Source of the DNA: a bacterium
GTDB lineage: Bacteria > Pseudomonadota > Gammaproteobacteria > Burkholderiales > Thiobacillaceae
DNA: 64,000 nucleotides
NCBI GenBank assembly: GCA_009772925.1
Contig: WOUQ01000008.1
Location: forward strand, 62,001 to 126,000
Reading direction: 5' to 3'
Made by a program: the position numbers and the translations under genes. The notes under the pieces were generated by a model. It did no database searches. It was not told the origin of the DNA and was given only the letters and a program-made list of their open reading frames with translations. Below, in pieces: positions 1 to 4,156 of the stretch (its first letter is position 1; each line of letters opens with the position of its first letter).

Positions 1-1443
1 GCCGAGTTTGCCCGCCTGGCAACCCGCCACGGTACCGTGGCGACGGTTTCCGACCCGCACGAGATCGCCAACGTGCTCGGCATCGAGGGGGTGCGCTTCA
101 TGCTGGACAACGCGCGCCGGGTACCCTTCAAGCTGTTCTTCGGCGCGCCCTCTTGCGTGCCGGCCACCCCCTTCGAGACCACTGGCGCGGAAATCGGCCT
201 GGCCGAGCTGGATATCCTGTTGCGGCGCGAGGGCCTCTCCTACCTGTCGGAAGTGATGAACTTCCCCGCCGTGCTGGCGCGCGACCCCGCGGTCATGGCC
301 AAGCTCACCCTGGCGCGGGACCTCGGACTGCCGGTGGACGGCCACGCCCCCGGCCTCACCGGCGAGCGCGCGCGGCGCTACGCCGAGGCGGGCATCGGCA
401 CGGACCATGAATGCACCAGCCTGGCCGAGGCGCACGACAAGATCGCGGCGGGCATGGCCATCCTCATCCGCGAGGGCTCGGCGGCGCGCGATTTCGACGC
501 CCTGCATCCGCTCATCGCCAGCCACCCGGAGCGGGTCATGTTCTGCAGCGACGACAAGCATCCGGACGACCTCGCGCGCGGCCACATCGACCGCCTGGTG
601 GCGCGGGCGGTGGCGGCGGGCCACGAGCGCATGGCCGTGCTGCGCTGCGCCTGCCTCAATCCCGTGCGCCACTATCGCCTGCCGGTCGGGCTGCTGCGCC
701 CCGGCGATCCCATGGATGCGGTGGAAGTGGCCGAGCTGCGCGAATTCCGGCCGCTGCGCACCTGGGTGGACGGCCATCGGGTGGCCGAGGCCGGTCGCAG
801 TCTGATCGAGCGGGTAGCGGTGACGCCCCTCAACCGCTTCGCCGCCGCGCGCATCACCCCGGCGGATCTGGCGGTGCCGGCCGGTCCGGGCCGCCTGCGC
901 GTGATCGACGCCGTCGACGGCGAACTGCTGACACGCGAGGCGCTGCTCGAACCGCGCATCGAGAACGGCTGCCTCGTGCCGGATCTGCTCCACGATGTGC
1001 TGCTGCTGGCCACGATCAACCGCTACCGCCCGGCGCCGCCGGCGGTCGCCTTCGCGCGCGGCTTCGGCCTGCGACACGGCGCGCTGGCCTCCAGCGTCGC
1101 CCACGATTCGCACAACATCGTGGCGGTCGGCGCCGACGCTGAAAGCCTCTGCCGCGCGGTCAACGTCCTGGTCGATGCCGGCGGCGGCATCGCCGTGGCC
1201 GACGGCGCAGGCGTGCAATGCCTGCCCCTGCCGGTGGCCGGCCTGATGAGCACGCAAGACGGGGACATGGTGGCCGCCCGCTACGCCGAACTGACGCGCG
1301 CGGCGAAGGCGCTCGGCTCGCCCCTGCGCTCGCCGTTCATGACCCTGTCGTTCATGGCCCTGCTGGTTATTCCCGAACTCAAGCTGAGCGACCGCGGCCT
1401 GTTCGACGCGCGCAAGTTTCGCTTCACCTCTCTGTTGGCATGA
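1..1443 (+). CDS. ade: Adenine deaminase, 5' end outside the window
   Basis: Hydrolyses adenine to hypoxanthine and ammonia in purine salvage (amidohydrolase superfamily, cytoplasmic). The reading frame is open from base 1, so about 100 N-terminal residues with the first metal ligands lie outside the window; 480 residues are present, against about 590 in E. coli Ade. Family signatures seen in order are HGTVATVSDPHEIANV, SCVPATPFETTGAEI, DGHAPGLTG, a TDHECTS stretch and CSDDKHPDDL, followed by the beta-rich C-terminal domain. It converges on the decarboxylase gene and the two coding ends overlap by 20 bases. The family assignment is firm; the true start cannot be seen. Confidence 0.93.
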   Translation, partial: AEFARLATRHGTVATVSDPHEIANVLGIEGVRFMLDNARRVPFKLFFGAPSCVPATPFETTGAEIGLAELDILLRREGLSYLSEVMNFPAVLARDPAVMAKLTLARDLGLPVDGHAPGLTGERARRYAEAGIGTDHECTSLAEAHDKIAAGMAILIREGSAARDFDALHPLIASHPERVMFCSDDKHPDDLARGHIDRLVARAVAAGHERMAVLRCACLNPVRHYRLPVGLLRPGDPMDAVEVAELREFRPLRTWVDGHRVAEAGRSLIERVAVTPLNRFAAARITPADLAVPAGPGRLRVIDAVDGELLTREALLEPRIENGCLVPDLLHDVLLLATINRYRPAPPAVAFARGFGLRHGALASSVAHDSHNIVAVGADAESLCRAVNVLVDAGGGIAVADGAGVQCLPLPVAGLMSTQDGDMVAARYAELTRAAKALGSPLRSPFMTLSFMALLVIPELKLSDRGLFDARKFRFTSLLA

Positions 1444-2368
1444 ACGTCGCCGCTGCCGCCTCGCCTCTCCCGCGGTCGGTAGCGGCGCCGGATGCCGCCG
1501 GAGCGAAGCCCATTCGCCGCTCCCATTCCCGCAAGGTGAGCCTCGCCAGGCCGGCGAAATCACCACCCGGCAGCGCCCGTCGGGCCAGCACCACATAGGG
1601 CGCCACGGCCAGGGCGATGCCCAGGTGGCCGGGCGGGACCATGGCGTGCGCGGCGCACAGGTAGGTGCGCTCGAACAGCAGGCCCTGGCCGCGACCGCAG
1701 GCGACGATGCTCTCCGCCACGCGCGGGCGGTGGCCGCCCAGCCAGGCTTCGAGGTCGGCTTCGCGATCGTTGCGCGTCCACACCCCCGCGTCCTCGATGA
1801 ACAGGTCGGCGGCGGCGCGCCGGTCGCGGGCGATCGACAGGGCCAGCACGCACCAGACGCCACAGGCCTGGCCGGCGGCCGCATCGATGTGCTGCGTGCG
1901 CGGCCGGTAGGCGGTCACGCTCTTGTTGGCGCAGATGACGTGGGCGCCCGGCGCCGGCGGGAAGCGTCGCGCCGCCGCCGTGCCGAACAGGGCCTTGCCC
2001 GCTTCCAGCAGGGGCTGGCCGTCGTACACCGGCAAGTCGGAGCCATCGTGCTGGGTGACGCTGAACAGGGGCTGCAGGCGGTGTTCGGCGATCGCCTCGG
2101 CCACCGCCAGGTCGTGTCCCCAGACCTGGCCGGCGATACCGCAGAAGGAGGAGGCGGTCTGCATGTTGATCTGGCCCAGGTAGGTCCCCGCCGCCTCGGC
2201 GCGGTCAAGGGCGACGATGCCGTCGAGCAGGGCGTCGTCGCTCTTTTCCACCGTGGCGGTGGCCACCTTCAGCACGCATACATAGCCCAGCCCCTCGGCG
2301 CCGGGCCGGGCATAGCCGTCGCAATAGTCGGCGAACGGACCGATGGCCCGATCGTCGCGGTCCCCCAT
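1424..2368 (-). CDS. hdcA: Pyruvoyl-dependent histidine decarboxylase homologue
   Basis: Predicted to decarboxylate histidine (or a related amino acid) using a protein-derived pyruvoyl group. The 314-residue product matches the Lactobacillus-type enzyme (about 310 aa) along its length. The self-cleavage site TASSF is at residues 71-75, so Ser73-Ser74 would split into beta and alpha chains and Ser74 would become pyruvoyl. LFIEDAGVW (189-197) carries the equivalents of catalytic Glu197 and Phe195, and DRAE (55-58) those of Asp63 and Glu66. The equivalent of substrate-contacting Tyr62 is Leu54. I chose the ATG at 2368, where similarity begins, 5 bases after the cupin stop; it has no strong ribosome-binding site and is probably coupled. 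No antiporter or HdcB-like gene is adjacent. Confidence 0.85.
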   Translation of the reverse strand: MGDRDDRAIGPFADYCDGYARPGAEGLGYVCVLKVATATVEKSDDALLDGIVALDRAEAAGTYLGQINMQTASSFCGIAGQVWGHDLAVAEAIAEHRLQPLFSVTQHDGSDLPVYDGQPLLEAGKALFGTAAARRFPPAPGAHVICANKSVTAYRPRTQHIDAAAGQACGVWCVLALSIARDRRAAADLFIEDAGVWTRNDREADLEAWLGGHRPRVAESIVACGRGQGLLFERTYLCAAHAMVPPGHLGIALAVAPYVVLARRALPGGDFAGLARLTLREWERRMGFAPAASGAATDRGRGEAAAATFMPTER

Positions 2369-2373
2369 GGCGT

Positions 2374-2850
2374 TCAGTGTCCGGGCGCGCCGGGATGCAG
2401 ATAGGTCGTGCCCGAGGGACCGACGCCGCTTACCTGGACGATGGCGTCCTCCTCGCCGACGCGGGCGAAGTGCGGGACTCCGGCCGGCTCGACGAAGAAG
2501 CTGCCGGCCGGCATGGCGCGCAGCCGCTCCGGTTCGAAGCGTTCGCCGAAACCGATGTGCAGCGTGCCGGAGAGCACGACCACCACGCGGTTCTCGGGGT
2601 GAAAATGGGGCTCCACCCGCAACCCGGCGGGCATGCGGATGCGCGCGGCGTAGAGGCCGGACTTCGCCATGTCGCCCGCCAGGGTGGCGATGGCCATGCC
2701 GCCGGGCCGGCTGGCGTCCGCCTCTAGGCGTATTTCCGCCGGAGTGAGGGTGAGGGGTAGGAAGCCTTCGCCGGCGGCCGGCTGGCCCCAGAAGAAGGCC
2801 GCAAGCGCCGCCAGGGCGAGGGCGCGGCGCGGCAGGTGCGGGAGTTTCAC
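2374..2850 (-). CDS. Secreted small cupin-domain protein
   Basis: A 158-residue protein with an N-terminal signal peptide (basic start, hydrophobic run, cleavage probably after QPAAG near residue 27) and one cupin barrel. Cupin motif 1 is PHFHPENRVVVVLSG and motif 2 is PAGSFFVEPAGVPHF; their His and Glu residues would bind a metal. Small periplasmic cupins of this kind have varied or unknown roles. The GTG start follows a strong GGAGGT ribosome-binding site (about 2859-2864). It is the first gene of a two-gene unit with the pyruvoyl decarboxylase. A link between the two functions is inferred only from that arrangement. Confidence 0.82.
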   Translation of the reverse strand: MKLPHLPRRALALAALAAFFWGQPAAGEGFLPLTLTPAEIRLEADASRPGGMAIATLAGDMAKSGLYAARIRMPAGLRVEPHFHPENRVVVVLSGTLHIGFGERFEPERLRAMPAGSFFVEPAGVPHFARVGEEDAIVQVSGVGPSGTTYLHPGAPGH

Positions 2851-4066: not shown

Positions 4067-4156
4067 TGGCGGAGAGAGGGGGATTCGAACCCCCGATAGT
4101 GCAAGCACTATGCCGGATTTCGAATCCGGTGCATTCGACCACTCTGCCATCTCTCC
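4067..4156 (-). tRNA. tRNA-Ser (anticodon CGA), CCA encoded
   Basis: The minus strand folds as a class II tRNA: acceptor GGAGAGA pairs with TCTCTCC, the anticodon arm is CCGGA-TTCGAAA-TCCGG with anticodon CGA (reads UCG), there is a long variable arm, the T loop is TTCGAAT, the discriminator is G and CCA is encoded (4069-4067). A possible -10 element TAGAAT lies at 4204-4199 with no convincing -35. aroG begins 18 bases downstream and may share the transcript. serS lies 1.5 kb away. Confidence 0.96.

Follow-up and report, generated by a model that had tools for sequence, protein, structure and literature searches.

The stretch of DNA analysed here, 64,000 nucleotides in length and hereafter called the window, carries near its beginning a gene for a pyruvoyl-type histidine decarboxylase, set tail-to-tail against an adenine deaminase gene and preceded by the gene of a small cupin (Table 1). 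Beyond the cupin lie a gene whose product looks AroG-like from its sequence, as well as a tRNA-Ser and a lytic transglycosylase gene.

Table 1. Genes and key codons at the decarboxylase locus of the window.
Feature	Position	Strand	Basis or remark
Adenine deaminase, 5' end before the window	1..1443	+	Convergent; 3' end overlaps decarboxylase by 20 bases (1424-1443)
Pyruvoyl-type histidine decarboxylase, 314 aa, Leu54 variant	1424..2368	-	ORF; ATG at 2368, stop at 1424
Codon of Glu192 (catalytic Glu197 equivalent), kept	1793..1795	-	Alignment
Codons of Ser73-Ser74, expected self-cleavage pair (Ser81-Ser82 of 30a)	2147..2152	-	Alignment
Codon of Glu58 (Glu66 equivalent), kept	2195..2197	-	Alignment
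Codon of Asp55 (Asp63 equivalent), kept	2204..2206	-	Alignment
Codon of Leu54 (CTT), equivalent of ligand-binding Tyr62	2207..2209	-	Alignment
Small cupin with Sec-like signal peptide (judged by eye), likely co-transcribed	2374..2850	-	5 bases upstream of decarboxylase

The decarboxylase scored 378 bits against the Pfam family HDC (PF02329; cut-off 25), over positions 9-292 of the 294 in the profile, and 352.0 bits against the NCBIfam equivalog TIGR00541, a narrow margin over its cut-off of 346.65. With phmmer against the PDB, its residues 5-73 and 75-292 matched the beta chain (E 3e-15) and the alpha chain (E 2e-48), respectively, of the Lactobacillus 30a enzyme, to which it is 44.4% identical. 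A sequence-only reading of this DNA had proposed a whole-length alignment with the Lactobacillus-type enzyme as well as the identity of the key residues, and both proposals hold up in these matches and in the phmmer alignment, where Ser73-Ser74 of the window protein correspond to Ser81-Ser82 of 30a, Leu54 to Tyr62, Asp55 to Asp63, Glu58 to Glu66 and Glu192 to Glu197. That reading had also suggested a profile search as a check, and the TIGR00541 match places the protein inside the pyruvoyl histidine decarboxylases. With a near whole-length profile match above a curated cut-off, the Ser-Ser pair and the catalytic Glu, the window gene is a member of this family. Within the ligand-binding pair Tyr62/Asp63, the Asp is kept and the Tyr is replaced by Leu; five of the 57 sequences outside its clade likewise lack the Tyr. 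Inspection of the N-terminus by eye revealed no hydrophobic stretch.

Our alignment of 61 sequences comprised the window protein, the three other members of its genus-level clade (L005, L006 and L007), the 30a enzyme and relatives drawn from genome contigs (located through exact matches to peptide patterns in the query), whole-genome searches and plasmids (5 of 20 plasmid records); some of the 57 non-clade sequences are near copies of each other, so the counts refer to sequences and not to independent events. At the Tyr62 position, all four clade members have Leu and none of the 57 others does, these having Tyr (52), Phe (2), Gly (2) or Ser (1), with the Ser found in L055, a partial and poorly aligned sequence, and the Phe and Gly in divergent members. 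The Leu54 codon varies synonymously within the clade, being CTT in the window and L007 and CTC in L005 and L006. The self-cleavage pair is nearly universal, with Ser at 73 in 59/61 and at 74 in 60/61 sequences. Among 12 positions examined, the clade members all carry the 30a residue except at the Tyr62 and Asp54 equivalents, the equivalents of Asp63, Glu66, Ile59, Phe83 and Phe195 being unchanged. The Asp54 equivalent is Ala in the clade, and among the 57 others it is Asp in 9, another residue in 47 and a gap in 1. Two further clade-specific changes, Gly38 to Ala and Asp227 to Gly, fall at near-invariant sites.

The equivalents of Asp53 and Asp198, described in a 2021 survey (PMC8465708) as a pH-regulating bridge, are kept in the clade, and hence pH regulation of the clade enzyme is still possible. 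The survey names Tyr62 and Asp63 as ligand-binding and reports that its models agree in the key residues; the Leu54 variant falls outside that picture and outside the antiporter-neighbour criterion used there. A literature search covering few subscription papers turned up neither changes at Tyr62 nor members that lack an antiporter, and no naturally altered specificity among the enzymes of this family. As a separate observation, a divergent member lying among transposases on the Rhizobium leguminosarum plasmid NZ_CP018231.1 (L078:2506-8884) has Gly in place of Tyr62 and Thr in place of Ser81.

The decarboxylase is under purifying selection within the clade, with dN/dS of 0.23-0.31 in all six pairs of the four species. 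In the window/L005 pair it is constrained, yet less so than any of the three genes compared with it, its dN/dS being 0.31 (0.28 for the core, residues 5-290, and 0.62 for the last 24 codons) vs. 0.12 (cupin), 0.19 (adenine deaminase) and 0.18 (AroG-like gene). In the window/L007 pair, the decarboxylase core (0.23) is close to the adenine deaminase (0.25), and the cupin reaches 0.39 in the window/L006 pair.

The spacing of cupin and decarboxylase suggests that one transcript may cover both, and the two genes adjoin in three of the four clade species. In the fourth, L007, a cupin was not recovered by tblastn, and by eye just the ends of the cupin frame can be made out; the decarboxylase beside this relic is intact. 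We considered the cupin as a fixed partner and found the case weak, given this relic and the presence of the cupin in 2 genus genomes lacking the decarboxylase; among solved structures, even its nearest matches are weak (germin-type oxalate oxidase, E 5e-4) and point to no clear function. The adenine deaminase is linked to the decarboxylase in all four clade species, with the 20-base overlap shared by the window, L005 and L007 and a phosphatase gene lying in between in L006. As a functional partner we set it aside too, since the tail-to-tail arrangement means that the two genes are not co-transcribed and, although 6 of 23 genus genomes carry the deaminase, including all 4 with the decarboxylase, 2 have it alone. 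The outer flanks differ between the window/L005 and L006/L007 pairs, indicating that decarboxylase and deaminase stayed joined while their surroundings changed, and descent or joint transfer alone would be enough to explain the linkage. The tRNA-Ser (CGA) lies at 4067-4156, approximately 1.7 kb from the decarboxylase and past the AroG-like gene; tRNA genes are common integration sites.

Among 51 related loci, an APC transporter gene lies no more than 4 kb from the decarboxylase in 27. Where at least 4 kb was available on both sides (31 loci), such a gene was found in 20 and was lacking in 11, namely the clade locus L006, five loci of the Roseibium group, L014, L034, L037, L047 and L055; the other 13 loci with no APC gene have one short flank. 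In L014, a weakly similar APC gene sits 4.07 kb from the decarboxylase, just past our limit. No APC gene was found next to the decarboxylase in the window, nor in the surrounding 4 kb in L005-L007, where two loci are short-flanked on one side. In the source genome, rated 100% complete, there was no match to AA_permease_2 (PF13520), found in 11 of 14 control genomes. At E 0.001, his_histam_anti (TIGR04298) matched 17 of the 30 genomes searched, none of them reaching the model's own cut-off, and none of the four clade genomes (completeness of the other three 98%, 92% and 84%). HdcB likewise gave no match in the four clade genomes in a search that recovered the genome from which the HdcB query came, but this absence says little, since HdcB lies beside only 7 of the 51 loci, some of them short-flanked, and all 7 belong to the Lactobacillus-type branch. 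Histidine ammonia-lyase was matched in none of the four clade genomes, and a PLP histidine decarboxylase in the same genome could be set aside, with no match to the group II PLP decarboxylases (PF00282, the sole Pfam family tested) in any of the four. The sequence-only reading had seen no antiporter or HdcB-like gene next to the decarboxylase and judged acid resistance by histidine/histamine exchange unlikely; the neighbours listed above confirm the former, and the absence of AA_permease_2 extends the latter to the whole source genome. With no AA_permease_2, HdcB, histidine ammonia-lyase or group II PLP decarboxylase matched there, classical histidine/histamine exchange in the source organism is very unlikely. 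The tally in PMC8465708 took in hdcA genes whose antiporter lay less than three genes away, and a type with no nearby antiporter would thus have been left out by design.

The decarboxylase gene is sporadic in its distribution. In a search of 41 genomes it was present in 4/23 of the genus and 0/18 other relatives, and in a class-level sample 4 of 369 genomes matched at E 0.001, with two, one of them the source genome, exceeding the family cut-off; in the class of a Roseibium genome, 3 of 385 genomes have it, that genome included. In a tree of 50 rows, the clade of four is fully supported (100/100) on a long stem of 0.67 changes per column, and its sister is the Roseibium/Labrenzia/Stappia group of Alphaproteobacteria with support of 90/84, which by the tree program's standard falls short of being shown but is not rejected either. 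A Lactobacillus-like origin can be dismissed, as grouping the clade with the Lactobacillus type was rejected (p-AU 0.008), and a plasmid-borne near source found no backing among 72,556 plasmid records, of which 20 encode a relative, all less than 60% identical. By record title, the 51 loci come from Alpha-, Beta- and Gammaproteobacteria, Bacteroidota, Fusobacteriota, Planctomycetota, Nitrospirota, Acidobacteriota and Cyanobacteriota, and also from Gram-positives; many of them are metagenome-assembled genomes. The view, held in the sequence-only reading, that the family is known mainly from Gram-positives is therefore out of date, the more so as the 2021 survey (PMC8465708) already lists pyruvoyl histidine decarboxylases in Proteobacteria, Bacteroidota, Fusobacteriota and Verrucomicrobiota, with six phyla in all. 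The Endozoicomonas homologue (L051:3436-4315) is split into two overlapping frames, indicating a frameshift or a sequencing error; the contig title gives low coverage.

Several homologues elsewhere deserve mention in their own right. Those of a Bacteroidales member (L008:4229-5218), Thiodictyon (L014:7722-8855) and a Planctomycetota member (L034:7809-8825), all Gram-negative, have no adjacent antiporter and carry a hydrophobic, signal-peptide-like N-terminus ahead of the conserved part, making them possible exported pyruvoyl decarboxylases; L072 (8017-9141), judged by eye, may be another such candidate, and the N-terminus scan picked out L027 and L055 too, the starts of which seem too long or out of alignment. 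In L034:8905-12581 (Planctomycetota) and L047:8891-11956 (Nitrospirota), a divergent homologue is followed by a protein of 566-568 residues and then a phospholipase-B-like hydrolase, possibly an uncharacterised gene set. The middle protein is an aminotransferase class I/II in L034 and a different one in L047, weakly DUF885-like but below cut-off. Distant homologues in L047:8891-10597 (Nitrospirota), L052:9221-10645 (Nocardioides) and L055:8621-9544 (Streptomyces) precede what seems by eye to be one protein family, with weak DUF885 likeness, below cut-off, in two of the three.

In this family, the chain is cut before a Ser which then becomes the pyruvoyl group, and a Glu serves as the acid in decarboxylation. 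The enzymes are trimers, with the pocket situated between subunits. By analogy, the window protein would cut itself between Ser73 and Ser74, giving chains of about 73 and 241 residues, Ser74 would be converted to the pyruvoyl group, the substrate would form a Schiff base with that group and Glu192 would act as the acid in decarboxylation. Because the imidazole-binding Asp55 and Glu58 are kept, we surmise that histidine or a closely related imidazole amino acid is the likeliest substrate. As no recognised amino-acid/amine antiporter was found in the genome, we propose no proton-consuming exchange cycle; the amine would serve some purpose within the cell, or escape passively and slowly, in a lineage that gave no match to histidine ammonia-lyase. 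Taken together, we lean, with some reserve, toward a functional cytoplasmic decarboxylase of histidine or a close imidazole amino acid, its amine serving an internal use with no exchange cycle, even though our analysis identified no histamine-using enzyme or gene. Against this reading, the loss of the ligand-binding Tyr62 may change or weaken histidine binding, and the long stem, the changes at Gly38 and Asp227 and the highest dN/dS of the four genes in the window/L005 pair weigh in the same direction.

The replacement of Tyr62 by Leu and the other stem changes might reflect a shift to another amino acid, such as a modified or bulkier imidazole or a non-polar one, with a different amine as product; the residue fixed in the clade and seen in none of the 57 others, its varying codon and the long, fully supported stem all fit, but the unchanged Asp63, Glu66, Ile59, Phe83 and Phe195 equivalents make the imidazole site look kept, and we regard such a shift as a tentative alternative. 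One obvious vacancy is filled, as PanD was found in all four clade genomes, and we accordingly dropped the idea that the decarboxylase replaces a missing PanD. Should the Leu54 clade indeed supply an internal pathway with an amine other than histamine, this would be a change of specificity that arose naturally among the histidine decarboxylases, an outcome that we consider rather unlikely. Ordinary histamine secretion, with histidine/histamine exchange through an unrecognised transporter encoded elsewhere, draws on the frequency of APC genes near related loci, which shows exchange to be common in the family; we deem it improbable here in view of the missing AA_permease_2 and his_histam_anti matches and of the five full-flank Roseibium-group loci that also have no APC gene nearby. 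A transferred gene now in decay, or no longer catalytic, could account for the sporadic presence in the genus, the rank in dN/dS among the four window/L005 genes and the loose last 24 codons, but the open frame and all catalytic residues are maintained in four species, dN/dS is well below 1 in every pair and the core evolves much like the adenine deaminase between the window and L007, so that such a relic seems quite improbable.

Set against HdcA of Lactobacillus 30a (L. saerimneri; PDB 1PYA / 1HQ6 / 1IBT-1IBW), the window protein aligns over nearly its whole length and shares the Ser-Ser pair, the catalytic Glu and the equivalents of Asp63, Glu66, Ile59, Phe83, Phe195, Asp53 and Asp198, but differs in having Leu for Tyr62 and Ala for Asp54 and in lacking an adjacent HdcP or HdcB. 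The HdcA proteins of Roseibium, Labrenzia and Stappia are its nearest full-length relatives outside the clade (60-62% identity) and are likewise antiporter-less, in five loci; unlike the clade, they keep Tyr62, and neither the linked cupin nor the adenine deaminase has a match in their loci. The hdcA/hdcP histamine-secretion clusters, as presented in PMC8465708, encode the same enzyme family in several Gram-negative phyla, but there with an antiporter nearby.

When bacteria make histamine, the usual interpretation is acid resistance or energy gain by exchange. One large survey (PMC8465708) defined histamine makers by a neighbouring antiporter. What we regard as new is that Leu54 is fixed in one clade and seen nowhere else in our alignment, on synonymously varying codons and under purifying selection. 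In the clade, as in its probable sister and in other relatives from the environment, the decarboxylase has no antiporter neighbour; since such members exist, and since the clade gene is kept by selection, the histidine decarboxylase family probably has at least one other use besides exchange. A fixed Leu at a ligand-contact site offers a direct and simple handle on whether the substrate has changed.
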